Counted from the stretch's first letter, positions 28,729 to 39,237 are shown. The stretch: 64,000 nt of DNA from Verrucomicrobiales bacterium (GCA_002698785.1 PAAG01000053.1:248001-312000), one strand, 5' to 3'. Notes: a model not told the origin generated them from the letters alone. Made by a program: numbers and translations.

Positions 28729-28801
28729 ACGTCGCGCACCAGCTGTGCACGCAGGTCTCCAAAACCAGCGATGCCTGGGGCGGCACCAGGGCGGCGTGCC
28801 A
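28729..28801 (+). tRNA. tRNA-Trp(CCA), altered elbow
   Basis: First tRNA of the array, with encoded CCA. The 7-bp acceptor is ACGTCGC / GCGGCGT. Anticodon CCA lies at 28759-28761 in loop CTCCAAA; the anticodon stem has one A-A mismatch. The D arm is short, GCAC-CAGCT-GTGC, with AG in the 5-base loop. The T loop is GGCGGCA (G54, G55, C56, G58) instead of TTCRAAT. Confidence 0.75.
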
Positions 28802-28808
28802 TTTCTTT

Positions 28809-28920
28809 GATCGGAGTCAGATATCAGAGGTCAGGAGTCAGCGAAGAGTGTTTTGTAGGTAACAGATGCGAGACAATCCAAACTGGCTTCTGACTTCTGA
28901 TCTCAGGCTTCTGAGAAATC
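28809..28920. repeat. Dispersed palindromic repeat, family 2
   Basis: Contains GGTCAGGAGTCAG and, 60 bases on, CTGACTTCTGATCTC in inverted orientation. Related copies occur at 30635-30712 and 31827-31911. The imperfect palindromic arms suggest a REP-like or miniature mobile element sitting in gaps of the array. Confidence 0.6.
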
Positions 28921-28921
28921 T

Positions 28922-28996
28922 GGGGGCGCATGTGCCACAGGGGCGATGCTGTCTTGCAAACAGCGTGGGCGGGTGCAAGTCCCGTCGCTTCCACCA
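28922..28996 (+). tRNA. tRNA-Ala(TGC), altered elbow, copy 1
   Basis: Acceptor GGGGGCG / CGCTTCC, discriminator A, CCA encoded. Anticodon TGC at 28955-28957 in loop CTTGCAA with a 5-bp stem. The D arm is reduced (TGCC-ACAGG-GGCG). The T arm is GCGGG-TGCAAGT-CCCGT, so position 55 is G and 56 is C. The spacer after it is AATTTCAAATC. Confidence 0.75.
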
Positions 28997-29009
28997 ATTT
29001 CAAATCAAA

Positions 29010-29081
29010 GGGGGAGCATGTCCATAGAGGCGATGCTGCCTTGCAAGCAGCGTGTGGCGGGTGCAAGTCCCGTTTCCTCCA
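29010..29081 (+). tRNA. tRNA-Ala(TGC), altered elbow, copy 2
   Basis: Acceptor GGGGGAG / TTCCTCC, discriminator A, no encoded CCA. Anticodon TGC at 29042-29044 with stem GCTGC / GCAGC. The D arm is degenerate (GTCC-ATAGA-GGCG). T loop TGCAAGT. It is clearly related to the copy before it. Confidence 0.7.
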
Positions 29082-29090
29082 CTTACTTTT

Positions 29091-29160
29091 GAGTGATTAG
29101 TAATCGGTAATCAGTAGGTCAGTAAAACTGGCGTATCGATCACTGATAACTGATTACTCC
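29091..29160. repeat. Dispersed palindromic repeat, family 1
   Basis: GTGATTAGTAATCGGTAATC on the left and ATCACTGATAACTGATTAC on the right form an imperfect palindrome. Related copies are at 30042-30117 and 39031-39107, all within the island. Confidence 0.6.
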
Positions 29161-29603
29161 CACTTTGGCGGCCTGGCGTCGTTAGATGATCCTGTTGTGA
29201 AGCAGGGAAAAGGAGAGTCCGTCCGGGCTCTCCGCCTCAGCCTTCGGGTTGGGGACAGCCAGGCAGACCCAGTCCTGTGAGCTTCGCGGAGTCAAATCCC
29301 GCGGAGCTATGCTGGAAGATGGGAGATGCTACCACTGCTGATGGCAAATGCTCAAGCAGTGGGCGGGTCTAGCACCCCGCAGAGTCTCTACGCAAACATC
29401 GACAGCTAAGGACGAAGGGCAGTCACATCGTGCAAGGCAGTTTTGCCGCCGAGAGCGATGGGGCAGTTGACTGGTGACGGATCGCGAGCTCCGAAGTCGG
29501 GTAGACCGTTCGAGATCCGTGGCAACGGGCCGGGCAAGAGGCGTGTGAGATTCGGTTGCTCAAAAAGCAATGGACTCGCAGGACGTGCACGTCTCTCAGG
29601 GCA

Positions 29604-29675
29604 AAGCAATTAGCCAAATGGTAAAGGCAATAGACTGTAAATCTATGATTGTGGGTTCAATTCCTGCATTGTTTG
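29604..29675 (+). tRNA. tRNA-Tyr(GTA), canonical elbow, short variable loop
   Basis: Acceptor AAGCAAT / ATTGTTT, D loop with GG (AAATGGTAAA), anticodon GTA at 29637-29639 with a perfect 5-bp stem, T arm GTGGG-TTCAATT-CCTGC. The variable loop has only 4 bases, whereas bacterial tRNA-Tyr normally has a long variable arm. No CCA is encoded. It lies inside the large structured RNA. Confidence 0.75.
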
Positions 29676-30006
29676 ACAAAAACGCAAAGTCGCGTCCACG
29701 ACAGTTGTGAGAATGGCTTAATCCCCGACCGACATTGTCGGAATCGGGGTCCGAAAGAGCTCGCAAGGCTCTTGAGGATTGATTGGAAGTCGCACGGTGA
29801 GGTTCGCGCCTCTTTGCGGCCCGGCAGGGTCGACGGTAGACGGAAAGTCGAGTAGCAATTGTCGAATGGGTCTAACGCCAGATCCTTAACAAAGGCAGCC
29901 ATGTAGAGTTACAGCATGTGGGGCCCATAGTCCCCTGTGTTGTGGAACGACTCGGGAAGGTGAGCCCTAGCAGGCTCGCGATAATCCGGAGCAAGACTCT
30001 ATGAGA

Positions 30007-30037
30007 GCAGGTGTCCTTCTCAGCCTGCCCTTTTTTT
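30007..30037 (+). terminator. Terminator of the large structured RNA
   Basis: Stem GCAGG / CCTGC, then CC and seven T. It separates the structured RNA from the next tRNA block. Confidence 0.7.
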
Positions 30038-30041
30038 CCAG

Positions 30042-30117
30042 AAATCGGTAATCAGTAACCGGTGATCAGATTCAGAGCATCTGACTGACCACTGTTTACG
30101 GATCACTGATTACTGAA
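30042..30117. repeat. Dispersed palindromic repeat, family 1
   Basis: ATCGGTAATCAGTAACCGG and CGGATCACTGATTACTGA form the two arms. Same family as 29091-29160 and 39031-39107. It lies between the structured RNA and tRNA-Pro. Confidence 0.6.
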
Positions 30118-30121
30118 CCAA

Positions 30122-30195
30122 CGTGGTGAGGTCGAAGTAGTCGAGATACCGGTCTTGGAAACCGGAGTAAGCAGGTGCAAGTCCTGTCACCGCGA
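30122..30195 (+). tRNA. tRNA-Pro(TGG), altered elbow, copy 1
   Basis: Acceptor CGTGGTG / CACCGCG with C1-G72 and discriminator A, as in bacterial tRNA-Pro. Anticodon TGG at 30156-30158, stem CCGGT / ACCGG. D arm TCGA-AGTAG-TCGA. T loop TGCAAGT. Confidence 0.75.
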
Positions 30196-30203
30196 TTACC
30201 AAA

Positions 30204-30280
30204 CGTGATGATACCGAAGCAGACGAGGTGCGTGTCTTGGAAACACGTTCAAGCAGGGGCAGGTCCTGCCATCGCGACCA
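30204..30280 (+). tRNA. tRNA-Pro(TGG), altered elbow, copy 2
   Basis: Acceptor CGTGATG / CATCGCG, discriminator A, CCA encoded. Anticodon TGG at 30238-30240. T arm GCAGG-GGCAGGT-CCTGC, so G54, G55, C56 and G58. The D region CGAAGCAGACGA resembles copy 1. Confidence 0.75.
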
Positions 30281-30290
30281 ATTTATTATA

Positions 30291-30361
30291 CCAGGGAAGA
30301 TGCTGGTTTTCTTGTTAGGTCTCATAAGCCTGACTACGCGAGTTCGATTCTCGCCCCTGGA
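30291..30361 (+). tRNA. tRNA-Met(CAT), canonical T loop
   Basis: Acceptor CCAGGGA / CCCCTGG (six pairs plus A-C). Anticodon CAT at 30323-30325, stem TAGGT / GCCTG. T arm GCGAG-TTCGATT-CTCGC is canonical, and CTGG in the D region supplies GG. The D stem is weak. No C1-A72 initiator feature is seen; CAT could also be a lysidine-modified Ile tRNA. Confidence 0.65.
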
Positions 30362-30373
30362 ACCAATTTCAAA

Positions 30374-30463
30374 AGGTGCTGTTCCCGTCAGTGGTCTGTA
30401 AAACCACCGTCAAAAAACAAGTCGGGAAGGCGACGAGTGGAGCGTTACCACCAGCACCTACCA
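30374..30463 (+). tRNA. tRNA-Tyr(GTA) without D hairpin, long variable arm
   Basis: Perfect acceptor AGGTGCT / AGCACCT, discriminator A, CCA encoded. Anticodon GTA at 30398-30400 with stem GTGGT / ACCAC. Only 10 bases (GTTCCCGTCA) lie between acceptor and anticodon stem, so no D hairpin can form. The variable arm is 29 bases (CGTC...GACG), and its loop contains CGGGAA, complementary to TTCCCG of the D segment. T loop AGCGTTA (A54, G55, C56, T58). The same design recurs at 32641. Confidence 0.7.
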
Positions 30464-30473
30464 TTTAGCCAAG

Positions 30474-30544
30474 TGGCTCATAGTGAAACAGTATCACGCC
30501 GGATTGTTAACCCGGAATTCATGGGGCGGAACCATGTGGGCCAG
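30474..30544 (+). tRNA. tRNA-Asn(GTT), altered elbow
   Basis: Acceptor TGGCTCA / TGGGCCA. D arm GTGA-AACAGTA-TCAC with AG at 18-19. Anticodon GTT at 30506-30508. T arm CATGG-GGCGGAA-CCATG (G54, G55, C56, G58). Confidence 0.8.
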
Positions 30545-30554
30545 TAATTTCAAA

Positions 30555-30625
30555 CGCTCTGTAGCTCAATAGTAGAGCACCCGGCTGATAACCGGAAGAC
30601 GTTGGAGCATAACCATCCAGAGCGA
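30555..30625 (+). tRNA. tRNA-Ile(GAT), altered elbow
   Basis: Acceptor CGCTCTG / CAGAGCG, discriminator A. D arm GCTC-AATAGTA-GAGC, exactly the canonical sequence except AG for GG. Anticodon GAT at 30587-30589. T loop AGCATAA (A54, G55, C56, T58). Confidence 0.8.
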
Positions 30626-30634
30626 CTCTTTTAG

Positions 30635-30712
30635 CCAGAAGTCAGATGATGGAGGTCAGAGGTCGGCGAGCAAAAGCCAGATCTCTGGCCTCCGGTTTCG
30701 GACTTCTGAAAC
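30635..30712. repeat. Dispersed palindromic repeat, family 2
   Basis: AGAAGTCAGATGATGGAGGTC on the left is inverted against GGACTTCTGAAAC on the right. Same family as 28809-28920 and 31827-31911. It separates tRNA-Ile from tRNA-Phe. Confidence 0.55.
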
Positions 30713-30716
30713 CCAC

Positions 30717-30788
30717 GGCTGGGTAGCTGAGACAGATTAGCGAACCGTTGAAGGCGGTGAGAGATCGGAGCGTTACCGATACCAGCCA
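30717..30788 (+). tRNA. tRNA-Phe(GAA), altered elbow
   Basis: Acceptor GGCTGGG / ACCAGCC with one mismatch at the seventh pair. Anticodon GAA at 30750-30752. The D loop contains ACAGAT. T arm ATCGG-AGCGTTA-CCGAT (A54, G55, C56, T58). Confidence 0.7.
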
Positions 30789-30806
30789 TAACCTTTCTAA
30801 AAAAGG

Positions 30807-30880
30807 GCCCCATTGATGTAATAGTAGCCTGCCTGTCTGTCGAACAGGTTGAGTCGGAGCATAACCGGCATGGGGCGCCA
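30807..30880 (+). tRNA. tRNA-Asp(GTC), altered elbow, copy 1
   Basis: Acceptor GCCCCAT / ATGGGGC, discriminator G as expected for Asp, CCA encoded. Anticodon GTC at 30839-30841, stem CCTGT / ACAGG. D loop AATAGTA. T loop AGCATAA. Confidence 0.8.
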
Positions 30881-30888
30881 TTTTCAAA

Positions 30889-30959
30889 GTCTCTGTAGTG
30901 TAACAGCAGCATGGCACACTTCCACTGTGGCGGTCCGGGTGCGAATCCCGGCAGGGGCT
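30889..30959 (+). tRNA. tRNA-Gly(TCC), altered elbow, copy 1
   Basis: Acceptor GTCTCTG / CAGGGGC. D arm GTGT-AACAGCA-GCAT with AG. Anticodon TCC at 30921-30923 with a 4-bp stem. T arm CCGGG-TGCGAAT-CCCGG. Confidence 0.75.
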
Positions 30960-30974
30960 CTTTCATTCTAACAT

Positions 30975-31048
30975 TCCTCCGAAGCATTAAAGTGATGCAG
31001 TGGTCTTTTAAACCACTGAAGAAGGGGCAGTACCTTCCGGGGGAACCA
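30975..31048 (+). tRNA. tRNA-Lys(TTT), altered elbow
   Basis: Acceptor TCCTCCG / CGGGGGA, discriminator A, CCA encoded. D arm GCAT-TAAAGTG-ATGC with AG. Anticodon TTT at 31007-31009. T loop GGCAGTA (G54, G55, C56, G58). Confidence 0.8.
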
Positions 31049-31058
31049 ATTTCACCAT

Positions 31059-31129
31059 GTCTCCGTGGTGTAGTAGACGCATAACGTCGTGCGAAGGCGT
31101 AGGATCAGGTGCGATTCCTGGCGGGGATA
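31059..31129 (+). tRNA. tRNA-Arg(GCG), altered elbow
   Basis: Acceptor GTCTCCG / CGGGGAT. D arm GTGT-AGTAGAC-GCAT with AG. Anticodon GCG at 31091-31093; bacteria normally use ACG for these codons. T arm TCAGG-TGCGATT-CCTGG. Confidence 0.75.
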
Positions 31130-31144
31130 TATTTTTCTAACAAA

Positions 31145-31216
31145 GCCTCTGTAGTGTAATAGGCAGCATGTCGCTCTTGTAAAGCGGTGGTCTGGGTGCA
31201 AATCCTGGCAGGGGCT
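31145..31216 (+). tRNA. tRNA-Thr(TGT), altered elbow
   Basis: Acceptor GCCTCTG / CAGGGGC. D loop AATAGGCA. Anticodon TGT at 31178-31180, stem TCGCT / AGCGG. T loop TGCAAAT. Confidence 0.8.
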
Positions 31217-31231
31217 CTTCCAGAATGATTT

Positions 31232-31301
31232 GTCGCCGTAGTGTAACACCAGCACATCGCCACTCAAAGGGGGTGTCCGGGTGAAAATCCCGGCGGCGAT
31301 C
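31232..31301 (+). tRNA. tRNA-like element, probable anticodon TCA, both 19 and 56 altered
   Basis: Acceptor GTCGCCG / CGGCGAT pairs fully and the T arm CCGGG / CCCGG is perfect. The T loop is TGAAAAT (G55 but A56) and the D loop AACACCA has AC where others have AG. The best anticodon loop is ACTCAAA with stem TCGCC / GGGGG (one mismatch), giving TCA at 31264-31266. A shifted reading gives CAA with a poor stem. It is too short for a selenocysteine tRNA. Confidence 0.5.
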
Positions 31302-31314
31302 GATCTTCTCAAAA

Positions 31315-31388
31315 GCCTCATTGATATAATAGCAACATGCCTGTCTGTCGAACAGGTCCCGCCGGAGCGTAACCGGCATGAGGCGCCA
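31315..31388 (+). tRNA. tRNA-Asp(GTC), altered elbow, copy 2
   Basis: Acceptor GCCTCAT / ATGAGGC, discriminator G, CCA encoded. Anticodon GTC at 31347-31349. D loop AATAGCA. T arm GCCGG-AGCGTAA-CCGGC (A54, G55, C56, T58). Confidence 0.8.
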
Positions 31389-31409
31389 TTTTTCAAAAAG
31401 AACAAGATC

Positions 31410-31481
31410 CCGGTCGTGGTGTAACTAGCAGCATACCACAGTGTGATTGTGAGGGAACGGGTGCAAATCCCGTCGACCGGT
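31410..31481 (+). tRNA. tRNA-His(GTG), altered elbow
   Basis: Acceptor CCGGTCG / CGACCGG. D loop AACTAGCA. Anticodon GTG at 31443-31445 with four stem pairs. T loop TGCAAAT. Confidence 0.7.
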
Positions 31482-31494
31482 TGACCATTTTCAT

Positions 31495-31571
31495 GATGTC
31501 GTGGTCCAAACGAGTAAGGCGCGAGACTGCAAATCTCGAGACTGCGGGTGCAAGTCCCGCCGACATCTCCA
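31495..31571 (+). tRNA. tRNA-Cys(GCA), altered elbow
   Basis: Acceptor GATGTCG / CGACATC, CCA encoded. The D loop contains CGAGTA. Anticodon GCA at 31529-31531, stem CGAGA / TCTCG. T arm GCGGG-TGCAAGT-CCCGC. Confidence 0.8.
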
Positions 31572-31579
31572 TTTTCTAA

Positions 31580-31654
31580 GCGTCATTCGTCTACCAGCTA
31601 GGACCCCTGCCTTCCAAGCAGAAAGACCCGGGGCAGCACCGGGATGACGCTCCA
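31580..31654 (+). tRNA. tRNA-Gly(TCC), altered elbow, copy 2
   Basis: Acceptor GCGTCAT / ATGACGC, CCA encoded. D arm GTCT-ACCAGCTA-GGAC with AG. Anticodon TCC at 31613-31615. T arm CCCGG-GGCAGCA-CCGGG (G54, G55, C56, G58). Confidence 0.8.
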
Positions 31655-31666
31655 ATTTCTAACAAC

Positions 31667-31737
31667 GGGAACTTAGTTTAAAAGAAGAACTCCTCTCTTA
31701 CAAAGAGGCGGCGGGGGAGCGTTACCTCCAGTTCCTA
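31667..31737 (+). tRNA. tRNA-Val(TAC), altered elbow
   Basis: Acceptor GGGAACT / AGTTCCT, discriminator A. D arm GTTT-AAAAGAA-GAAC with AG. Anticodon TAC at 31699-31701, stem CCTCT / AGAGG. T loop AGCGTTA. Confidence 0.8.
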
Positions 31738-31752
31738 TTTCAATTTTCAAAA

Positions 31753-31823
31753 GGGGGCTTAGTTCAAAAGTAGAACGTCTCTCTCATAAGGAGAAAAAGG
31801 AGGAGCATTACCTCCAGCCCCTA
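31753..31823 (+). tRNA. tRNA-Met(CAT), altered elbow
   Basis: Acceptor GGGGGCT / AGCCCCT, discriminator A. D arm GTTC-AAAAGTA-GAAC with AG. Anticodon CAT at 31785-31787. T arm GGAGG-AGCATTA-CCTCC (A54, G55, C56, T58). It could also be Ile-CAT before lysidine modification. Confidence 0.8.
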
Positions 31824-31826
31824 TTT

Positions 31827-31911
31827 CTTTCAGAGGTCCGAAGTCAGAGACCAGAGGTCGGACGGAAGCACAGGCTCTGACTTCTGATGTCAGTCATCTG
31901 ATCTCTGTCCC
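31827..31911. repeat. Dispersed palindromic repeat, family 2
   Basis: CCGAAGTCAGAGACCAGAGG on the left is inverted against CTCTGACTTCTGATG on the right. Same family as 28809-28920 and 30635-30712. It lies between tRNA-Met and tRNA-Glu. Confidence 0.55.
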
Positions 31912-31915
31912 AAAC

Positions 31916-31989
31916 GGGGAATTCGTCCAAAAGTAGGACGCCTCGCTTTCACCGAGGAAACAGGGGAGCGTTACCCCTATTCCCTGCCA
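31916..31989 (+). tRNA. tRNA-Glu(TTC), altered elbow
   Basis: Acceptor GGGGAAT / ATTCCCT, discriminator G, CCA encoded. D arm GTCC-AAAAGTA-GGAC with AG. Anticodon TTC at 31948-31950, stem CCTCG / CGAGG. T arm AGGGG-AGCGTTA-CCCCT. Confidence 0.8.
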
Positions 31990-31999
31990 CTTTCAGAGC

Positions 32000-32089
32000 C
32001 GGAGTGTAGCTCAATTGGTAGAGCGGCCGAGTTATATTCGGTAAGTGCTAGATAAGCCGCTGATACAGGTTCAAGTCCTGTCACTCCGA
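32000..32089 (+). tRNA. tRNA-Ile(TAT)-like, canonical elbow, enlarged variable region
   Basis: Acceptor CGGAGTG / CACTCCG, D arm GCTC-AATTGGTA-GAGC and T arm ACAGG-TTCAAGT-CCTGT are all canonical. The best anticodon arm is GCCGA-GTTATAT-TCGGT, giving TAT at 32033-32035, rare in bacteria. The variable region is 22 bases with no strong stem. An alternative is an insertion in the anticodon region, since GGC and GCC flank a larger loop. The last 9 bases overlap the stop end of the opposite-strand gene. Confidence 0.6.
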
Positions 32090-32503
32090 TCGTGTATCGA
32101 GAGTCGATTCGACAATTGGGCTTTCGAAATCAATCCTGGCGTCAGGACCAACGATGATTCCTGCCGGGTTGATGACCTTGATGCTACCGTCACTCGAAAG
32201 TTTCCCAAGAATCCTCGAAGGAATTCCACTCTCATCTATGATCAGAGTCGTGGCATCTGGATGATCCGTCGTGATATGTAGTTTTGTCGGATCGACAACA
32301 AATCCAGACGAGGTTCTGAGGATGGCTCTTCTAGTCGACTGGTGAATCGTTAAGGTGCGCTCTGAATGGTCTTCTGAAATTTCTGCGTCACCTTGAATCA
32401 CATCCCAATCTCTCTCAGGAACTGATGACCTCTGCAAAAGCAGGGCAATTACCCCGATGCAGGCAATCAGCACTCCGAGGCCGATAAAGTGATAGCGGTT
32501 CAT
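32081..32503 (-). CDS. Small membrane-anchored protein with a filamentous haemagglutinin-like motif
   Basis: A 140-residue protein inside the tRNA array, on the opposite strand. It starts with a membrane anchor (FIGLGVLIACIGVIALLL). The C-terminal half, GSIKVINPAGIIVGPDARID, resembles the haemagglutination-activity (TpsA secretion) motif, in which NPNG-x-x-x-G-x-x-A is conserved. A full TPS domain is about 250 residues, so this is a fragment or minimal version. Its stop end overlaps the 3' end of the Ile-like tRNA by 9 bases. It may be cargo of the island or a decayed remnant; no TpsB partner is seen. Confidence 0.6.
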   Translation of the reverse strand: MNRYHFIGLGVLIACIGVIALLLQRSSVPERDWDVIQGDAEISEDHSERTLTIHQSTRRAILRTSSGFVVDPTKLHITTDHPDATTLIIDESGIPSRILGKLSSDGSIKVINPAGIIVGPDARIDFESPIVESTLDTRSE

Positions 32504-32555
32504 CTTTAGGGAAGCGTCTACTCATACGAGCTTCGTCTAAAAACAATTTTCTAAA

Positions 32556-32629
32556 GCGACATTGGTCCAAAAGTAAGATGCGGGCGTGCCAAGTCTGCGA
32601 ACCCGGGGCAGTACCGGGATGTCGCACCA
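32556..32629 (+). tRNA. tRNA-Gly(GCC), altered elbow
   Basis: Acceptor GCGACAT / ATGTCGC, discriminator A, CCA encoded. D loop AAAAGTA. Anticodon GCC at 32588-32590, stem CGGGC / GTCTG. T arm CCCGG-GGCAGTA-CCGGG (G54, G55, C56, G58). Confidence 0.8.
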
Positions 32630-32640
32630 ATTTCCAAATG

Positions 32641-32727
32641 CCCGATGTTCCCCTCGTGGTGTTCTAAGCCACAGGCATAAAACAAGGGGGGTAGAGCCAA
32701 GGGGTGCAACTCCTCCATCGGGTTCCA
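32641..32727 (+). tRNA. tRNA-Arg(TCT) without D hairpin, long variable arm
   Basis: Acceptor CCCGATG / CATCGGG is perfect. Only 8 bases (TTCCCCTC) separate it from the anticodon stem GTGGT / GCCAC, so there is no D hairpin. Anticodon TCT at 32663-32665. The variable arm (GGC...GCC) has a loop with AAAACAAG and GGGGGG, able to pair with CCCCTC of the D segment. T loop TGCAACT with a 4-bp stem. The design matches the tRNA-Tyr at 30374. Confidence 0.65.
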
Positions 32728-32732
32728 TTTCT

Positions 32733-32955
32733 AGAATCTATCCCAGAACCTAGAATGCTTCCGCGATAAAGGATTTCGACCTTAGGTAAGGCGTGTCGAG
32801 AAAGCGGGTATTCACCCGCGACCGAGGCGCAACGCAAGCTGAGGGTGAAAGACTTATCGCCCGTAGGGCCTTCTTGCGGCAATCCGGCAAAGCCGCTAGC
32901 CACTACCCCCTGAAAGAACACAGGCGGGAGCGTTCAAGGTTTTGGGATAGGTTCT
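32733..32955 (+). ncRNA. Structured RNA closed by a very long terminal helix
   Basis: Bases 32733-32764 pair with 32924-32955: 31 pairs (Watson-Crick and G-U) interrupted by a single A-A mismatch. The enclosed 159 bases contain hairpins GCGGGT-ATTC-ACCCGC (about 32804-32819) and AAGG / CCTT (32769-32783), and paired GCGG / CCGC around 32876-32895. No tRNA cloverleaf fits and no coding frame is convincing. A long end-to-end helix with a structured loop resembles Y RNAs, the partners of Ro proteins, and a Ro gene lies 2.5 kb downstream. That link is inference. Confidence 0.55.
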
Positions 32956-32961
32956 AATAAC

Positions 32962-33033
32962 ACTCTCGTAGCTCAGCGGAAGAGCGAGGGTCTTCGAAAC
33001 CCGAGGTCGTGGGTTCAAATCCTACCGGGAGTA
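32962..33033 (+). tRNA. tRNA-Arg(TCG), canonical elbow
   Basis: Acceptor ACTCTCG / CGGGAGT. D arm GCTC-AGCGGAA-GAGC with GG. Anticodon TCG at 32994-32996. T arm GTGGG-TTCAAAT-CCTAC. A normal bacterial-type tRNA inside the altered array. Confidence 0.8.
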
Positions 33034-33047
33034 TTTATTTTTCCAAA

Positions 33048-33124
33048 AGCTGCGTAGCCCAATCAGCAGAGGCATCCGGCTCAAACCCGGAACAGTGCAG
33101 GTGCAAGTCCTGTCGCAGCTACCA
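33048..33124 (+). tRNA. tRNA-Leu(CAA), altered elbow, short variable loop
   Basis: Acceptor AGCTGCG / CGCAGCT, discriminator A, CCA encoded. D loop AATCAGCA. Anticodon CAA at 33082-33084, stem TCCGG / CCGGA. The variable loop is 5 bases, unlike the long arm of bacterial tRNA-Leu. T loop TGCAAGT. Confidence 0.8.
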
Positions 33125-33132
33125 ATTTTCAA

Positions 33133-33225
33133 GGAGCCTTCAACCAGACAAGCGTGCTGGCACCGTCTCGAAAACGGTCGGTCCCGTGTCCGCGGGATTG
33201 GGTGCAAGTCCCAGGAGCTCCGCCA
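33133..33225 (+). tRNA. tRNA-Ser(CGA), altered elbow
   Basis: Acceptor GGAGCCT / GAGCTCC with one mismatch, discriminator G, CCA encoded. D arm CCAG-ACAAGCGTG-CTGG with AG. Anticodon CGA at 33169-33171. Long variable arm with CCCG / CGGG, as normal for Ser. T loop TGCAAGT. Confidence 0.8.
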
Positions 33226-33233
33226 TTTTTCAG

Positions 33234-33326
33234 GGAACTCTCAACCAGGCAAGCGAACTGGCGCCGTCTTGAAAACGGTCGGTTCCGCGTGAGCGGGATG
33301 AGGTGCAAGTCCTCGGGGTTCCGCCA
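33234..33326 (+). tRNA. tRNA-Ser(TGA), altered elbow
   Basis: Acceptor GGAACTC / GGGTTCC, discriminator G, CCA encoded. D arm CCAG-GCAAGCGAA-CTGG. Anticodon TGA at 33270-33272. Long variable arm. T arm TGAGG-TGCAAGT-CCTCG. Confidence 0.8.
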
Positions 33327-33339
33327 AATTTTAAGTAAA

Positions 33340-33416
33340 GCCCACGTAGCCCAATTAGCAGAGGCGCCGTGTTGAGTGCGCGGAGGTTGCAGGTGCAAGT
33401 CCTGCCGTGGGTACCA
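33340..33416 (+). tRNA. tRNA-Leu(GAG), altered elbow, short variable loop
   Basis: Acceptor GCCCACG / CGTGGGT, discriminator A, CCA encoded. D loop AATTAGCA. Anticodon GAG at 33374-33376, stem CCGTG / CGCGG. Variable loop of 5 bases. T loop TGCAAGT. Confidence 0.8.
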
Positions 33417-33425
33417 ATTTTCAAA

Positions 33426-33518
33426 GGAGCTTTCAACCAGACGAGCGTGCTGGCACCGCCTGGAAAGCGGTCGGCTCCGCATTCGCGGGGTGGGGTGCAA
33501 GTCCCCGGAGTTCCTCCA
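33426..33518 (+). tRNA. tRNA-Ser(GGA), altered elbow
   Basis: Acceptor GGAGCTT / GAGTTCC, CCA encoded. D arm CCAG-ACGAGCGTG-CTGG. Anticodon GGA at 33462-33464, stem ACCGC / GCGGT. Long variable arm. T arm TGGGG-TGCAAGT-CCCCG. Confidence 0.8.
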
Positions 33519-33532
33519 TTTTCAATAGTCAC

Positions 33533-33606
33533 GGTCGCGTGGCCCAACTAGCAGAGGCATTCGACTTAAAATCGAAGAGATGCGGGTGCAAATCCTGCCG
33601 CGACCA
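33533..33606 (+). tRNA. tRNA-Leu(TAA), altered elbow, short variable loop
   Basis: Acceptor GGTCGCG / CGCGACC, discriminator A. D loop AACTAGCA. Anticodon TAA at 33567-33569, stem TTCGA / TCGAA. Variable loop of 5 bases. T loop TGCAAAT. Confidence 0.8.
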
Positions 33607-33627
33607 TTTCTCAAATCAATTTCAAAA

Positions 33628-33703
33628 GCCCATGTAGCCCAACAGCAGAGGCGCTGGTCTCAGAAGCCAGAGGTTGCAGGTGCAAATCCTGCCATGGGTA
33701 CCA
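33628..33703 (+). tRNA. tRNA-Leu(CAG), altered elbow, short variable loop
   Basis: Acceptor GCCCATG / CATGGGT, discriminator A, CCA encoded. D loop AACAGCA. Anticodon CAG at 33661-33663, stem CTGGT / GCCAG. T loop TGCAAAT. Close relative of the GAG copy at 33340. Confidence 0.8.
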
Positions 33704-33711
33704 ATTTACAA

Positions 33712-33803
33712 GGAATCTCAACCGGACAAGCGTGCCGGGGGCGTTTGCTAAACGTCAGGATCTGCGGGAGCAGATTGGGGTGCAAGTCCTCGGGGTTCCG
33801 CCA
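33712..33803 (+). tRNA. tRNA-Ser(GCT), altered elbow
   Basis: Acceptor GGAATCT / GGGTTCC, discriminator G, CCA encoded. D arm CCGG-ACAAGCGTG-CCGG. Anticodon GCT at 33747-33749. Long variable arm. T arm TGGGG-TGCAAGT-CCTCG. Confidence 0.8.
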
Positions 33804-33813
33804 TTTTCAAAAC

Positions 33814-33890
33814 GCTCGTGTAGCCCAACTAGCAGAGGCGCCGGTCTTAGAAACCGGAGGTTGGGGGTGCAAATCCCTCCACGAGTACCA
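33814..33890 (+). tRNA. tRNA-Leu(TAG), altered elbow, short variable loop
   Basis: Acceptor GCTCGTG / CACGAGT, discriminator A, CCA encoded. D loop AACTAGCA. Anticodon TAG at 33848-33850, stem CCGGT / ACCGG. T arm GGGGG-TGCAAAT-CCCTC. It completes the five-member Leu set. Confidence 0.8.
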
Positions 33891-33899
33891 CTTTCAAAA

Positions 33900-33972
33900 T
33901 CCTCTGTGGCAGAGCCAGCAATGCACTCCTCTCGTAAAGGAGATCATGTCGGTGCGACTCCGACCGGAGGAA
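33900..33972 (+). tRNA. tRNA-Thr(CGT), altered elbow
   Basis: Acceptor TCCTCTG / CGGAGGA. D loop AGCCAGCA. Anticodon CGT at 33933-33935, stem CTCCT / AGGAG. T arm GTCGG-TGCGACT-CCGAC. Confidence 0.8.
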
Positions 33973-33982
33973 TCATTTCAAT

Positions 33983-34137
33983 GTCCCTGTAGTGTAGTGG
34001 CCGAGCACAACCGGCTTTCGCCCGGTTAGAGCGTGGGTTCGACTGCTGCGGCGCGATAGCGCTTATCATATCGCTCGCTTGGCGAGCCATGGCGCAGAGC
34101 GGTTGGCGGGACGCCGACCGATAATCCCGACCGGGAT
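33983..34137 (+). tRNA. tRNA-Glu(TTC) copy interrupted by a structured insertion in the T loop
   Basis: Bases 33979-34029 repeat the intact tRNA-Glu at 34158 (flank included) and carry anticodon TTC at 34017-34019. After GTGGGTTCGA the sequence departs for about 80 bases and then resumes as AATCCCGACCGGGAT. The insertion thus lies between T-loop bases 58 and 59. It folds well: GCGATA / TATCGC, CTCGC / GCGAG, and a 9-bp hairpin CGGTTGGCG-GGA-CGCCGACCG. Two extra bases sit in the variable loop. It is either a disrupted copy or an intron-like tRNA. Confidence 0.6.
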
Positions 34138-34157
34138 TCTGCGAATTACTTTTCAAT

Positions 34158-34233
34158 GTCCCTGTAGTGTAGTGGCCGAGCACAACCGGCTTTCGCCCGG
34201 TTAGCGTGGGTTCGAATCCCGCCAGGGATGCCA
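34158..34233 (+). tRNA. tRNA-Glu(TTC), canonical elbow
   Basis: Acceptor GTCCCTG / CAGGGAT, discriminator G, CCA encoded. D loop with GG (AGTGGCCGA). Anticodon TTC at 34192-34194, stem ACCGG / CCGGT. T loop TTCGAAT. A normal bacterial-type tRNA. Confidence 0.85.
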
Positions 34234-34255
34234 TTTCTTCATCCAGATTTCAATT

Positions 34256-34333
34256 GGTCCTCGTGGTGTAGTGGTAACACGGCTTGCCCTTACGTATGGC
34301 CAGCCGCCGCGGGTTCGATCCCCGCCGAGGCCA
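34256..34333 (+). tRNA. tRNA-like, extended anticodon arm, possible anticodon ACG
   Basis: D arm GTGT-AGTGGTA-ACAC and T arm GCGGG-TTCGATC-CCCGC are canonical. The acceptor GTCCTCG / CGAGGCC has one mismatch. The anticodon arm is stretched: GGCT / AGCC, a mismatch, GCC / GGC, a mismatch, then loop TTACGTA with ACG at 34292-34294. The arm is four to five pairs longer than normal. Identity is uncertain. Confidence 0.5.
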
Positions 34334-34348
34334 CCTTGAATTTCTAAT

Positions 34349-34421
34349 TCCCGAGTAGCATAATAGTTAGTGCGTCGGCCTTTGAAGCCGGGAGGTCACG
34401 GTGCAAATCCGTGCTCGGGTG
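34349..34421 (+). tRNA. tRNA-Gln(TTG), altered elbow
   Basis: Acceptor TCCCGAG / CTCGGGT (first pair T-T, otherwise complete). D arm GCAT-AATAGTTA-GTGC with AG. Anticodon TTG at 34382-34384. T arm CACGG-TGCAAAT-CCGTG. Confidence 0.75.
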
Positions 34422-34439
34422 CTAGAAGCCAACTCTTGA

Positions 34440-34518
34440 ACTCTGATGTGCCGCGCGCTTGGTAAAACGCCCGAGTGACAAGGCGAGGCGAGCGGCGATG
34501 ATGGGTTCATCACAGAGT
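34440..34518 (+). ncRNA. tRNA-like or cruciform structured element
   Basis: ACTCTG / CAGAGT closes the element like an acceptor stem. Inside, GCCGC / GCGGC encloses two small hairpins, one with a D-loop-like GCG-CTTGGTAAAA-CGC. TGAT / ATCA flanks GGGTTC. No anticodon arm fits, so it is not a normal tRNA. Confidence 0.35.
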
Positions 34519-34700
34519 GAGCCTCAACACGGTCAGACGGGCGTTCTGCCAGCACCCGAAAGGGTTGCTTTTGTATTCGCCTCCGATCTTCGTTGCTTTT
34601 TCGTCAGCTATTTAAAGATAGCCTCCTCAAAAGCGCCTCGCCGGGTCTCGAAGACAAATCGGAAACGCGGTTCACCAGAGTTCAAGAGCTGGCTTCTAAT
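34519..34700. other. Gap in the array with weak tRNA-like traces
   Basis: No gene is supported. A GNRA-type hairpin GCACCC-GAAA-GGGTTGC lies at 34551-34567, and a T-arm-like CCAG...GTTCAAG...CTGG near 34671-34692. These look like remnants of tRNA-like units. Confidence 0.3.
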
Positions 34701-34710
34701 TTGAGAGGCA

Positions 34711-34796
34711 GTAAGAGATCGAGATACTTCGGTAAAAGCGCCAGCCATAGTGCTGGTTTGCATGCGGGTTCAAATCCTGTAGCCGATCGGGTGATA
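34711..34796 (+). ncRNA. tRNA-like element with GAGATACTTCGG motif, copy 1
   Basis: GAGATACTTCGG at 34721-34732 is followed by a hairpin CCAGC-CATAGT-GCTGG and a canonical T arm GCGGG-TTCAAAT-CCTGT. GATCG / CGATC can close it. The motif recurs at 34875, 35117 and 35223, always ahead of the Ro gene. Confidence 0.4.
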
Positions 34797-34858
34797 CTCC
34801 TGATCGTCTCACGCTCGACTCACCGTTCTCCTCTCATTCCATTTTTTTGAATTTGATC

Positions 34859-34975
34859 CAGCAGTGAGGCTATGGAGATACTTCGGCTTATAACCGCGTT
34901 GTCGCGGGTTCAAATCCCGCCCTCCCGACTCCGGGAGGTAGCTCAGTCAGGTAGAGCACGTACACTCTCCCGCCA
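34859..34975 (+). ncRNA. tRNA-like element, motif copy 2, with inverted order of acceptor strands
   Basis: GCAGTGAGG, then GAGATACTTCGG (34875-34886), then a canonical T arm (34904-34920), then CCTCCCG-ACTC-CGGGAGG (34921-34938), followed by a perfect canonical D arm (GCTC-AGTCAGGTA-GAGC) and CTCCCG with CCA. The acceptor 3' strand thus precedes the 5' strand, as in a permuted tRNA, but no anticodon stem pairs across the halves. Fused tRNA fragments are the simpler view. Confidence 0.4.
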
Positions 34976-35004
34976 TGTGTTCTCTGGATCATGTCTTTCA
35001 CAAT

Positions 35005-35079
35005 TCCCGGATGGTCTAACAGTTATGATGTCGCTCTCTGAAAGCGAAGATCACGGTGCGATTCCGTGTCCGGGTGCCA
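35005..35079 (+). tRNA. tRNA-Gln(CTG), altered elbow
   Basis: Acceptor TCCCGGA / TCCGGGT (first pair T-T), discriminator G, CCA encoded. D loop AACAGTTA. Anticodon CTG at 35038-35040, stem TCGCT / AGCGA. T arm CACGG-TGCGATT-CCGTG. Confidence 0.8.
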
Positions 35080-35101
35080 ATTCCTAACCGAAACACTTTC
35101 G

Positions 35102-35447: not shown

Positions 35448-36887
35448 ATGAAATTTAATAAACTACTCAAACGAAAAGCAACCAAGCCGAATACCATTAA
35501 CCTTGCTGGCGGACAGGCCCACGCACAGTCCGATAAGCTCGAACTCGTCACGATCCTGTTGACGAGCTTCCTCGGTGATCAGTTTTATCGCAAAGGCGAT
35601 GAAACGGCAAAGCGCCTTGCTACTCTCGTGGCAAAGGTCTCCGATAAAGAGTTCGTCGCCAAGGCAGCTCTCTACGCTCGTCGCGAAGCTGGTATGCGCT
35701 CCGCTTCTCACCTCGTCGCTGGCGAACTCGCCCACTTGGTGAAAGGCGAAGCATGGACGAAGAGCTTCTTCGACCGTGTTGTATACCGTGTCGATGACGC
35801 GCTCGAAATCCTCGCCTACTGCATGGCCGTCTACGGAAAGCCTCTACCTAACGCCTTGAAAAAAGGTCTTGGTCAGGCTCTTACCCGTTTCGATGCCTAC
35901 CAATTGGCGAAATACCGCCGAGCATCTGCCGAGCTGAAACTCGTCGATGCCGTGAACCTCGTTCACCCACCTCACACAGAGGCACTGGCTCAGCTGGTGA
36001 GTGGTGAACTCGCTCCGGCATCTACGTGGGAAACCAAGCTCACCCAGGCAGGTCAGACAGCCGAATCCGACAAGGATAAGGAAGTCCAGAAGGCCGCCGT
36101 CTGGAAGGAACTCATCGAGTCCCGCAAGATCGGCTACTTTGCCCTTCTGCGTAACCTGCGCAACATCGTGGAACAGGCGCCAGACATGACGGACCAGGCA
36201 GTCGAGCTACTGGTCGACAAAGCGTTGATCCGTAAATCTCTCGTCATGCCATTCCGTTACCGTACGGCGCTGGATGCCATCGAAGCTGCGGATATGCCTC
36301 GCGACTCTCGTCAGAAAGTGGTGAGCGCACTTAGCCGCGCTGTCGACCTGTCCCTTGCGAACGTGCCTCGCTTCGGCGGACGTACACTCATCGCGATGGA
36401 CTGCTCCGGTTCCATGATCGGGAAGCCGATGAAAGTCGGTTCGCTCTTTGCGGCCGTTCTATACAAAGCGAACGATGCCGACCTCATGCTCTTCAGTGGA
36501 GATGCGAGATACGTCTCCCTCAACGCTGATGACGCTACCCTCAGCATCGCGCAGCGTATCGAAGAAAAGGCCGAATGGAGTGGCACAAACTTCCGCGCTG
36601 TTTTCCAGCGCGCGAATCAGGCATACGATCGCATCGTGATCTTGTCCGATATGCAGGCCTGGATGGGGCACTGGACTCCGAAAGAACAGTTTGATCGTTA
36701 CGTTGATAAAGTCGGCAAACGCCCACGCATCTACTCATTCGATCTCGCTGGCTACGGATCGCTTCAGTTCCCAGAGCGCGAAGTATACGCACTTGCCGGT
36801 TTCTCCGACAAGACGATGGACACAATGCGTTTCCTCGAAGAAGACAAGAACGCGCTTCTGAGAGAAATCGAACGCATCGAATTCTAA
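35448..36887 (+). CDS. rsr: Ro60/TROVE-domain RNA-binding protein
   Basis: Ro proteins bind Y RNAs and misfolded RNAs and, in bacteria, work with exoribonucleases in RNA quality control. The 479 residues show the HEAT-like TROVE ring (about 20-320; GDQFYRKGDETAKRLATLVAKVSDKEFVAKAALYARRE with the typical A-L-Y-ARR-xGMR) and a vWA domain (about 325-479). That domain has an intact MIDAS motif DCSGSM and later SGT and D residues. A strong Shine-Dalgarno, AAAGGAGGTGA, at 35425-35435 fixes the start. Codon use is strongly biased, as in highly expressed genes. It directly follows the tRNA/Y-RNA-like array and is followed by its own terminator. Confidence 0.92.
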   Translation: MKFNKLLKRKATKPNTINLAGGQAHAQSDKLELVTILLTSFLGDQFYRKGDETAKRLATLVAKVSDKEFVAKAALYARREAGMRSASHLVAGELAHLVKGEAWTKSFFDRVVYRVDDALEILAYCMAVYGKPLPNALKKGLGQALTRFDAYQLAKYRRASAELKLVDAVNLVHPPHTEALAQLVSGELAPASTWETKLTQAGQTAESDKDKEVQKAAVWKELIESRKIGYFALLRNLRNIVEQAPDMTDQAVELLVDKALIRKSLVMPFRYRTALDAIEAADMPRDSRQKVVSALSRAVDLSLANVPRFGGRTLIAMDCSGSMIGKPMKVGSLFAAVLYKANDADLMLFSGDARYVSLNADDATLSIAQRIEEKAEWSGTNFRAVFQRANQAYDRIVILSDMQAWMGHWTPKEQFDRYVDKVGKRPRIYSFDLAGYGSLQFPEREVYALAGFSDKTMDTMRFLEEDKNALLREIERIEF

Positions 36888-36920: not shown

Positions 36921-37195
36921 TCACTCAACGGGCGGTGGCTCTGTCAGGGCCGCCGCCATTCAACGAGACCTGTTGCCAAAATTGTTTGCCGAAATCTTGA
37001 GAGTGGAATCGGGCCTGGCGAGGCGCTCGCGACAGAGTTGGGTTTCCCCAACGACGGAGTGAGGAACGAAGCCAGGCTTGATTTCAGTCCAAGGCTTAGA
37101 TTTCACATCCGAGCAAAGCGAGGCTGATTTTAAAGCCCAAAAAAATTCCATTTCGGTAAAGAATTTTGGCAATAGGTCGAATCCAATCATTCGAG
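36921..37195. other. 275-base gap after the Ro terminator
   Basis: I see no gene or recognisable RNA here. The stretch has several small GC-rich inverted segments but no clear promoter; the next frame opens at 37196 with only a weak GAG as ribosome site. Confidence 0.4.
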
Positions 37196-38035
37196 ATGAA
37201 TATCAACTCACTGGAAAAGCACTTTGCTCGAATGGGGGCACGCATCAAAACCGTGCGCCACGAACCGGTCCAGAGCCGGTGGGGCTGGAACAGCCGCGCA
37301 TTTACTGGAAACTTCTCCGTGGATGTTCGTCAGGACCGGCAGGGGGAGCATTTTGTTTTTAACGTCTCAACATTGGTGGAAGATCGCCTCGACTTGGAGA
37401 TCCTCCAGGTAGCACCGAAAGATCGTCACCTGCTCCTGCTGGTGAAGGATTTCGAAAATCTCCACAACCCTACGAAGGATCGCTTTCTCTGCGGTCACGA
37501 CGAGCGGGAGTGGTTTGTTGCTGCCGTGCCGGGAGCTGTTTCAACGGTTGTCTCGGCCATGGAATCTCTGAAGCCACCCAAGGTGCAAATGGTTCAGGGC
37601 CGCAAAGGTCTCAACCAGAAGCAGCGCAACAAGCGTCGAAACAAAGCGTTTCGCCGTCAGGGAGAGTGGTTCTTCGTTCCTGTGCCAAACGCAGACATCG
37701 ATGAATCTCTCATTCTGCACAACGAGCCGATTGCTCGATCCGGTGGAAAGCCGCATATGGTCGAGTTCCTGTATCGCCAGGGAGGACAAACTCTCTATGT
37801 CTCCTCGAATCGTCCCGACGGACTTTTCGAAAACGACTACAAGAAGCTAATCCTCAAAAAACCGAAGGCGAAAAACTGGAACTGGTCCACGCGTCGAATC
37901 AATCCTCGTGTCTATGCACGCGGCGAGGTCCGCCACCCGGATCACAAGACGATCACGCTACATGAATGGCACGAAGTTCTCATGAATCAAGAGAACCAGA
38001 GCCGCACCATGCAGCACGTCGCTTTCATTGATTGA
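37196..38035 (+). CDS. Unknown protein of the Ro/RNA-repair island
   Basis: I do not recognise this 279-residue protein. The start at 37196 (MNINSLEKHFARMGARIKTVRHEP) seems best; an in-frame ATG ten codons upstream is possible. It is soluble and basic in the middle (RKGLNQKQRNKRRNKAFRRQGEW), which suggests RNA binding. The flanking parts are beta-rich (HLLLLVKDFENLHNPTKDRFLCGHDEREWFVA; TITLHEWHEVLMN). Conserved-looking His and Trp are frequent, but no catalytic motif stands out. It lies between the TROVE and HNH genes and has its own hairpin after the stop, so an accessory role in the Ro system is plausible. Confidence 0.75.
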   Translation: MNINSLEKHFARMGARIKTVRHEPVQSRWGWNSRAFTGNFSVDVRQDRQGEHFVFNVSTLVEDRLDLEILQVAPKDRHLLLLVKDFENLHNPTKDRFLCGHDEREWFVAAVPGAVSTVVSAMESLKPPKVQMVQGRKGLNQKQRNKRRNKAFRRQGEWFFVPVPNADIDESLILHNEPIARSGGKPHMVEFLYRQGGQTLYVSSNRPDGLFENDYKKLILKKPKAKNWNWSTRRINPRVYARGEVRHPDHKTITLHEWHEVLMNQENQSRTMQHVAFID

Positions 38036-39153: not shown

Positions 39154-39237
39154 GTCAAAAAACTAGCTCAATAGGATAGAGCGTCAGACTGATAATCTGA
39201 AGGTTGCTGGTTCAAATCCGGCATTTCCGTTTTGGCA
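39154..39237 (+). tRNA. tRNA-Ile(GAT)-like with displaced acceptor strands
   Basis: D arm GCTC-AATAGGATA-GAGC, anticodon GAT at 39191-39193 (stem TCAGA / TCTGA) and T arm GCTGG-TTCAAAT-CCGGC are canonical. The expected acceptor does not pair. Instead GTCAAAA / TTTTGGC pairs further out, leaving unpaired AAC and ATTTCCG. Probably a degenerate or insertion-bearing copy. Confidence 0.5.

Follow-up and report, generated by a model that had tools for sequence, protein, structure and literature searches.

A clustered tRNA set with exchanged elbow positions 18 and 55 in a Verrucomicrobiales genome, related bacteria and phages

The array and its readings

We analyzed 64,000 nucleotides of a Verrucomicrobiales bacterium (GCA_002698785.1 PAAG01000053.1:248001-312000, one strand; hereafter the window, with positions counted from its first letter), which are part of contig 56 of a 7.0-Mb genome that is 95.9% complete. 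At 28.7-35.1 kb the window carries an array of about 42 tRNA elements, followed by genes for TROVE, HNH, band-7 and RlaP proteins (Table 1). Most of these tRNAs have G55-C56 in the T loop where U55-C56 is usual, together with AG in place of GG at positions 18-19 of the D loop. They form a second, nearly complete tRNA set, and the joint exchange is also present in related bacteria and in phages, often adjoining RNA-repair genes. Ordinary tRNAs of the genome lie on other contigs, and all 27 parsed chromosomal tRNAs outside the array have GG with TTC (parsed from the loci of the best 30 of 63 tRNA matches, with three array loci excluded). With 42 elements beside these canonical tRNAs, the locus is a clustered array in the sense of at least 20 tRNA genes next to a dispersed normal set.

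The tRNAs were collected with a structural scanner that scores stems, U8, A14, pyrimidine 32, U33, purine 37 and loop sizes and puts zero weight on positions 18, 19 and 54-58. At a score of at least 20 it found 31 tRNAs in positions 28000-40000 and none on the reverse strand, while three first-order Markov shuffles gave no match even at a score of at least 19; the 7/4/5/5-bp cloverleaf with 7-nt anticodon and T loops is built into the scanner, so only the shuffle control is informative for it. These 31 divide into 27 with G55 and four with U55. A relaxed pass ignoring the D arm gave 41 candidates, two of which (29717 and 31831) were judged spurious, leaving 34 with G55 (including one G55-A56, at 31232) and five with U55. 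Addition of the U55 element at 34257 and of two G55-C56 tRNAs recognized by eye (Tyr 30375 and Arg-TCT 32640) gives the final tally of 42, with 35 G55-C56 and six U55. The 35 agree with the number in the original prediction and jointly specify all 20 amino acids, the Tyr member being one of those read by eye. ARAGORN reported only 19 of the approximately 42, plus the element at 39156, indicating that tRNA finders lose such genes.

AG is found in the D loop of 33 of the 35, as had been predicted, though some read AGG (Ala 28922, Thr 31145) and are ambiguous; the other two have no clear D arm. The accompanying claim that a few members keep GG together with TTC holds for Tyr 29604, Met 30290, Ile-TAT 32000, Arg-TCG 32962, Glu 34158 and the element at 34257, but only in part for the Ile-like copy at 39156, which has U55 and a D loop that can be read either way. 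The element at 31232 is perhaps a suppressor or a degenerate gene.

Table 1. Features of the array and of the region downstream (window positions; D-loop and T-loop readings are given as, for example, AG + TGC)
Feature	Position	Strand	Evidence and reading
tRNA-Trp(CCA)	28729..28797	+	relaxed scan; T loop GGCGGCA (G55), D loop CAGCT
tRNA-Ala(TGC)	28922..28992	+	ARAGORN, relaxed scan; T loop TGCAAGT (G55); D loop AGG, ambiguous
tRNA-Ala(TGC)	29010..29080	+	relaxed scan; T loop TGCAAGT (G55)
GOLLD-like RNA, canonical tRNA-Tyr inside	29536..30026	+	RF02032 142.4 bits, E 1.8e-38, gathering score 150
tRNA-Tyr(GTA) inside GOLLD	29604..29674	+	ARAGORN, scanner; canonical GG + TTC
tRNA-Pro(TGG)	30122..30194	+	scanner; AG + TGC
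tRNA-Pro(TGG)	30204..30276	+	scanner; AG + GGC
tRNA-Met(CAT)	30290..30361	+	relaxed scan; unusual D arm with GG, T loop TTCGATT
tRNA-Tyr(GTA)-like	30375..30458	+	by eye, missed by scans; T loop AGCGTTA (G55), no clear D arm
tRNA-Asn(GTT)	30474..30543	+	scanner; AG + GGC
tRNA-Ile(GAT)	30555..30624	+	scanner; AG + AGC
tRNA-Phe(GAA)	30717..30787	+	scanner; AG + AGC
tRNA-Asp(GTC)	30807..30876	+	scanner; AG + AGC
tRNA-Gly(TCC)	30889..30958	+	ARAGORN, scanner; AG + TGC
tRNA-Lys(TTT)	30975..31044	+	scanner; AG + GGC
tRNA-Arg(GCG)	31059..31128	+	ARAGORN, scanner; AG + TGC
tRNA-Thr(TGT)	31145..31215	+	ARAGORN, scanner; AGG (register ambiguous) + TGC
tRNA-like element, apparent anticodon TCA	31232..31300	+	scanner; D loop AACACCA, T loop TGAAAAT (G55-A56)
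tRNA-Asp(GTC)	31315..31384	+	scanner; AG + AGC
tRNA-His(GTG)	31410..31480	+	scanner; AG + TGC
tRNA-Cys(GCA)	31495..31567	+	ARAGORN, scanner; AG + TGC
tRNA-Gly(TCC)	31580..31650	+	scanner; AG + GGC
tRNA-Val(TAC)	31667..31736	+	ARAGORN, scanner; AG + AGC
tRNA-Met(CAT)	31753..31822	+	scanner; AG + AGC
tRNA-Glu(TTC)	31916..31985	+	scanner; AG + AGC
tRNA-Ile(TAT)	32000..32088	+	ARAGORN, scanner; canonical GG + TTC, 22-nt variable region
tRNA-Gly(GCC)	32556..32625	+	scanner; AG + GGC
tRNA-Arg(TCT)-like	32640..32723	+	by eye, missed by scans; T loop TGCAACT (G55), no clear D arm
tRNA-Arg(TCG)	32962..33032	+	ARAGORN, scanner; canonical GG + TTC
tRNA-Leu(CAA)	33048..33120	+	ARAGORN, scanner; AG + TGC
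tRNA-Ser(CGA)	33133..33221	+	relaxed scan; T loop TGCAAGT (G55)
tRNA-Ser(TGA)	33234..33322	+	relaxed scan; T loop TGCAAGT (G55)
tRNA-Leu(GAG)	33340..33412	+	ARAGORN, scanner; AG + TGC
tRNA-Ser(GGA)	33426..33514	+	relaxed scan; T loop TGCAAGT (G55)
tRNA-Leu(TAA)	33533..33605	+	ARAGORN, scanner; AG + TGC
tRNA-Leu(CAG)	33628..33699	+	ARAGORN, scanner; AG + TGC
tRNA-Ser(GCT)	33712..33799	+	relaxed scan; T loop TGCAAGT (G55)
tRNA-Leu(TAG)	33814..33886	+	ARAGORN, scanner; AG + TGC
tRNA-Thr(CGT)	33900..33971	+	ARAGORN, scanner; AG + TGC
tRNA-Glu(TTC)	34158..34229	+	ARAGORN, scanner; canonical GG + TTC
tRNA element (ARAGORN: Arg ACG)	34257..34335	+	canonical GG + TTC
tRNA-Gln(TTG)	34349..34420	+	ARAGORN, scanner; AG + TGC
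Y RNA-like (YrlA) element	34872..34990	+	RF02553 45.5 bits, E 1.2e-7, gathering score 69
tRNA-Gln(CTG)	35005..35075	+	ARAGORN, scanner; AG + TGC
TROVE (Ro60/Rsr-like) protein gene	35448..36887	+	PF05731 E 1.5e-19
conserved protein, no Pfam match	37166..38035	+	homologues in L054, L059, L060, L153
array-associated HNH protein gene	38437..39027	+	PF13395, PF01844; homologues in arrays
Ile-like tRNA element, upstream of band-7	39156..39230	+	ARAGORN; T loop TTCAAAT (U55), D loop AATAGGATA, readable as GG or AG
SPFH/band-7 (slipin-like) gene	39314..40264	+	PF01145 E 1.4e-25
conserved protein, no Pfam match	40357..41175	+	homologues in L056-L058, L061, L149, L150, L154; weak in phage L092
RlaP nucleotidyltransferase gene	41172..41930	+	PF10127 E 5.8e-70
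second RlaP-like gene	41927..42997	+	PF10127 E 4.3e-21

Joint exchange of positions 18 and 55

In all, 876 tRNAs were parsed; they come from arrays of related Verrucomicrobiota, from phage contigs and canonical arrays, and from the chromosome of the host (L and G numbers are our labels for loci and genomes). In 7-nt D loops, positions 18-19 are fixed by counting, without any choice of motif. The 292 tRNAs with such loops, from all sources, comprise 155 with A18-G19/G55-C56, 119 with GG/UC, four with GG/CC and 14 others including one GG/GC. Position 18 is concordant with position 55 (A18 with G55, or neither) in 283 of them, while 2000 within-locus shuffles gave a mean of 240 and a maximum of 257, so the pairing is not due to chance. 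Among 18 loci that hold both classes, 133 of 134 tRNAs with 7-nt D loops are concordant. With all loop sizes included, where the 18-19 register of D loops longer than 7 nt is uncertain, AG is seen in 397 of 431 G55 tRNAs (ambiguous in 10), and GG in 385 of 433 U55 tRNAs (ambiguous in 30, AG without GG in five). One such AG/U55 exception, at 10299 in L151, is probably a mis-registration by the scanner but was kept in the counts. The predicted compensated change from G18-U55 to A18-G55 is thus borne out in the related bacterial arrays as well as in phage arrays, and the random combinations of GG or AG with TTC or GC that would have spoken against it were not seen in the homologous arrays examined.

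Other positions of the elbow change as well. The 54-58 pair of the G55 class (n=431) is U-A in 289, G-G in 55, A-U in 46, C-A in 22, A-A in seven, C-C in five, U-U in four and something else in three, so that 142 of 431 depart from U54-A58 against 18 of 433 in the U55 class, where 415 have it. The two positions covary within the G55 class (mutual information 0.908, shuffle maximum 0.041), and A54-U58 is accompanied by A60 in 46 of 46. A purine stands at position 57 in 429 of 431. The 19-56 pair is nearly always G-C, with 16 tRNAs lacking C56. To our knowledge, cytosolic tRNAs are regarded as having the G18-Psi55 and T54-A58 contacts almost without exception; the G55 class does not have this canonical combination. 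Very probably, judging from these covariations, positions 18 and 55 have been exchanged as a compensated tertiary pair in functional tRNAs.

Apart from this pattern, we noted apparent C19-G56 swaps in L066 (97 and 7089), L081 (797), L100 (991) and L149 (9875, Arg-TCG), and apparent U19-A56 swaps in L062 (17732) and L092 (11032), both Arg-TCG, which is repeatedly the odd one among them. For these swaps the 18-19 register is our own reading and minus-strand starts are in reverse-complement coordinates; the rest of the 16 are misread or have no clear partner. Moreover, phage locus L117 (LR745206) has at 14670-15660 normal GG and U55 tRNAs with T loops ATCGTAA or ATCGTTA, that is, an apparent A54-U58 without the 18-55 exchange.

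The elbow might be thought to have drifted under relaxed selection in a decaying mobile tRNA island, since CCA is missing in 14 of 27 G55 tRNAs of the window, the D arm is unclear in some and the Glu copy near 33983 is broken. We reject this explanation, which is hardly tenable, as it is contradicted by the covariation at both 18-55 and 54-58. Encoded CCA is found in 27 of 28, 26 of 27 and 12 of 12 G55 tRNAs of L149, L150 and L156, respectively, and homologous chromosomal neighbors lie upstream of the array in L054, L061 and the window.

As far as can be read from the genes, the G55 class keeps decoding features about as well as the U55 array tRNAs do. Comparing 315 G55 with 390 U55 array tRNAs, we found U33 in 91% and 94%, purine 37 in 99% and 98%, G53 in 98% and 99%, C56 in 98% and 99%, and encoded CCA in 61% and 48%, respectively; U33 and purine 37 contribute to the scanner score, but the U55 tRNAs were parsed identically. 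These features bear on the very unlikely alternative that the tRNAs donate amino acids outside translation. There is a precedent in the tRNA-Gly variants of Staphylococcus aureus, natural bacterial tRNAs with altered D and T loops, which are charged but poorly recognized by EF-Tu (PMC8007984). However, the S. aureus case concerns one amino acid and cell-wall synthesis, whereas the G55 class combines the paired exchange with all 20 amino acids in one array, more than a non-ribosomal pathway would need, and keeps U33 and purine 37.

In the canonical elbow, residue 18 is inserted between 57 and 58 and has 55 as its pairing partner, and the 19-56 pair forms a flat outer face to which the ribosome and RNase P, among others, bind (PMC4810234). 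A UGNRA lonepair triloop recruits an A from outside that meets its G, giving a composite GNRA fold (PMC2258182). The G55 class resembles this motif in U54-A58 (289/431), in purine 57 (429/431), and in AG, which would give the outside A (397/431, plus the 10 ambiguous). It is probable, from this likeness, that the exchanged elbow adopts the UGNRA/composite-GNRA geometry. The loop U54-G55-N56-R57-A58 would be the lonepair triloop, A18 would insert between 57 and 58 to make a GNRA-type sheared pair with G55, and G19-C56 would still close the flat outer face for the ribosome and RNase P. The motif has been described in connection with riboswitches (PMC2258182), whereas in the present case the elbow of the tRNA would itself be the motif.

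Recurrence in other genomes and phages

The original prediction described the class for this locus. The covariation stands, though it is not absolute, and the class has a wider range: it recurs in other genomes and in phage tRNA clusters. A search of genome contigs with the window TROVE protein gave eight loci, and TROVE matches were found in 17 of 387 genomes of the phylum, including the window's own and two with a close relative (G181, G080). These loci were not selected for tRNAs. The window and the TROVE-found loci (nine with parsed tRNAs) hold 101 AG/G55, 22 GG/U55, no AG/U55, no GG/G55 and 11 ambiguous or neither (n=134). A covariance model of AG-GC tRNAs, built partly from those of the window, L054, L060 and L062 and used at a threshold of E 1e-17, matched 12 of the 387 genomes, of which 11, the window's genome included, hold such arrays on inspection. 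Of the regions from ten new genomes, nine are arrays with a G55 majority (5/8 to 28/28), and that of G084 consists of two canonical tRNAs. The array of G099, a one-contig genome, has G55 in 28 of 28 parsed tRNAs and encoded CCA in 27.

Two DNA patterns gave 42 loci in IMG/VR, 20 of which have at least five distinct tRNAs; G55 is in the majority in nine of these 20, for example in 30 of 31 tRNAs of L076 and 16 of 16 of L096. L092 and L093 are phage by their terminase and portal genes. The patterns demanded one AG-GC tRNA; seven of the 42 loci yielded no scanner tRNA, and 30 contribute after de-duplication. As the viral set and the set found by the covariance model (L149-L158) are enriched by construction, class frequencies are not population frequencies. 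Without pattern-matched elements there remain 167 AG/G55, 157 GG/U55, one AG/U55 and no GG/G55 (n=368; the rest are ambiguous, C55 or neither). Duplicate sequences, L026, L027, L030 (array), L031-L053 and L119-L148 (small loci) were dropped before counting. Statistics on the stems carry no weight as evidence, since the tRNAs behind them had been selected by their stems. A Gln pattern found no match in the viral contigs, the window TROVE protein has no relative there, and megablast of two phage arrays against named phages gave one 53-base match for one and none for the other.

The presence in phage contigs excludes a curiosity of Verrucomicrobia. The exchange is not a feature of all tRNA arrays either, since G55 occurs in 0 of 190 tRNAs of eleven known plasmid and phage array regions (L108-L118, with only three tRNAs each in L111 and L112). 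We know of no described tRNA set matching the A18-G55 class, and found no description of it in the open-access literature searched.

Masking the elbow loops and the anticodon loop, we compared each G55 tRNA with its closest U55 relative. The amino acid agreed in 101 of 315 cases (shuffle mean 20.5, maximum 37), and in 211 of 417 when U55 tRNAs from different loci were compared with each other in this way. On account of this preserved likeness across classes, we reject a single acquired tRNA lineage. Moreover, close pairs with the same anticodon differ by the double exchange (Leu-GAG of the window and of L055; Leu-TAG of the window and of a cyanobacterial plasmid). In addition, AG-G55 and GG-U55 members occur together in 43 of the 533 clusters formed at 70% identity. 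Taken together, these facts indicate that the exchange took place, or was undone, on many occasions.

Companion genes and possible function

The genes downstream of the array recur with it. The HNH family of 38437-39027 is found at all ten TROVE loci and in eight of the nine new AG-GC arrays; members also lie beside several phage and plasmid arrays, canonical or not, and homing or RNA cutting are candidate roles. RlaP and band-7 recur in bacterial arrays and near phage AG-GC arrays (L092, L089). RtcB was confirmed in four of four proteins tested and has a homologue in L151; the window genome has its RtcB on another contig, and TruB is present. Phage array L069 has TROVE with a LigT-type protein, while the window TROVE has no homologue in L149-L158. 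Both companions expected of array units, GOLLD and HNH, are found, with GOLLD-like RNAs below the gathering score of 150 in the window (142.4), L054 (123.9) and L061 (129.9 bits). YrlA (RF02553) is also below gathering in the window (45.5 vs 69), as in L054, L060 and L061. The tRNAs embedded in GOLLD are canonical GG and TTC in three of three (Tyr at 29536-30026 of the window, Arg-TCT at 5342-5831 of L054 and at 5786-6281 of L061) despite their differing identity. This suggests that the binding partners an RNA must have determine its elbow.

Several known systems resemble this locus. In Anabaena PCC 7120, TrcR represses a plasmid trn array of 26 tRNAs, which is induced by translation-targeting antibiotics, and deletion of TrcR raises the trn array, rtcB, an HNH gene and a slipin gene (PMC10272220). 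That array is likewise a second clustered set beside dispersed housekeeping tRNAs (PMC10272220). It differs in that here the elbow is exchanged and the companion genes lie in one locus, apart from rtcB in the window genome; the comparison with Anabaena covers the genes. The array of the Kovacikia cyanobacterial plasmid (L109) has normal elbows, unlike that of the window. A mycobacterial tRNA cluster with GOLLD and HNH has also been described, which shares with ours the dense clustering, the tRNA inside GOLLD and the HNH gene (PMC6582537). In contrast, the elbows read here from such arrays, those of the M. intracellulare plasmid (L108) and of sampled phage records, are almost all GG and TTC. 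Phage tRNA sets thought to survive tRNA-depleting defence would be similar in purpose, but those that evade anticodon nucleases change the anticodon loop (PMC10264068), whereas here the elbow is changed in nearly all isoacceptors.

With moderate confidence, we regard the array as a stress reserve used in translation, because among experimentally studied systems the Anabaena array comes closest to this gene set. It would be a resident reserve of elongator tRNAs with rebuilt elbow, used when canonical tRNAs are damaged by translational stress, tRNA-cutting defence or toxins. Repair would be supplied by RtcB, or by RlaP with TROVE/Y RNA and band-7, and the exchanged elbow may hide the reserve from enzymes that read the canonical one. 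The enzymes evaded would most likely be those that damage tRNAs, or else those that make Psi55, m5U54 and Gm18. Modification enzymes are in keeping with the changed positions, and tRNases with the gene context. That the exchange arose specifically to escape a tRNase that reads the elbow is only a tentative proposal.

Bacterial tRNAs can carry Gm18, m5U54, Psi55 and m1A58 at just the positions that are changed here (for TruB and TrmA, see PMC12503941). It is conceivable, if rather unlikely, that the elbow was adapted to fold and work without host modification enzymes, with no need of a tRNase. G55 cannot become Psi55 and A18 cannot take Gm18; 54 and 58 are freed, as their many departures from U54-A58 indicate (142/431 vs 18/433), 56, 53 and 61 hardly change, and TruB is present in the host genome. 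However, most G55 tRNAs keep U54-A58 (289/431), and G55 is absent from all 190 tRNAs in the plasmid and phage regions with names, so mobile tRNAs do well without the exchange. As to a host capability for m5U54, a TrmFO model gave two matches below cut-off (TrmA was not searched for). The earlier claim that Psi55 and m5U54 enzymes should not recognize these T loops follows for G55 and for a non-U 54, but not generally for m5U54, since U54 is kept in 295 of 431.

Two further explanations can be considered. In one, which we consider quite improbable, the elbow is a self mark: a nuclease or modifier that cells and phages with these modules either operate themselves or withstand, and for which the HNH protein is a candidate, would destroy canonical G18-Psi55 tRNAs so that translation switches to the complete AG-GC set, with RtcB or RlaP/TROVE as the healing arm. 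If true, an orthogonal tRNA population would be separated from that of the host by tertiary structure alone. In the other, the tRNAs are decoys that soak up tRNA-cutting enzymes or tRNA-binding factors. The association with RNA repair and Y RNA would suit decoys, yet these should mimic the target, while here the elbow departs from it and decoding features stay; this makes the idea highly improbable.

Several observations weigh against a translational reserve that evades elbow-reading enzymes. No AG is seen in 24 of the 431 G55 tRNAs (in four of these the D loop is too short for a reading), and both classes occur side by side in several phage arrays. Encoded CCA is patchy in G55 tRNAs, with 13 of 27 in the window, 0 of 22 in L069 and 0 of 15 in L079. 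HNH (L108-L110, L115) and TROVE (L110) also accompany canonical-elbow arrays, and together with the GOLLD and HNH of the mycobacterial cluster this means that the elbow cannot be explained by the module alone. We identified no tRNase specific for the elbow: PADLOC on the downstream module proteins matched HNH alone, with models of Cas9, PtuB and restriction enzymes (best E 1.2e-8). Moreover, the S. aureus tRNA-Gly with variant D and T loops is poorly used by EF-Tu (PMC8007984), so the exchanged tRNAs need not be used in translation.

In elbow conservation, the contributions of structure, of the ribosome and EF-Tu, and of modification enzymes are hard to separate, and a natural swap makes this question testable. 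It is available in hundreds of tRNAs for all 20 amino acids, with 18-55 and often 54-58 changed and 56 and 53-61 kept. The A18-G55 exchange is a ready design rule for orthogonal tRNAs, and it points to unknown elbow-reading enzymes in the conflict between phages and bacteria.

Some minor features were also observed. The 22-nt variable region of tRNA-Ile(TAT) is identical in the window (32000-32088) and L057 (3315-3403), and its GCCGC could pair with GCGGC at the D/anticodon junction. By eye, an interrupted second copy of the tRNA-Glu of 34158 lies near 33983-34066, its end being unrelated sequence, and further YrlA-like elements are seen near 34713, 35115 and 35213. The inter-tRNA spacers at 28820-28900, 29090-29160, 30040-30115, 30630-30710 and 31830-31910 contain, again by eye, recurring diverged repeats like GATCAGTAATCAGTGATC and GGTCAGAAGTCAGAGG.

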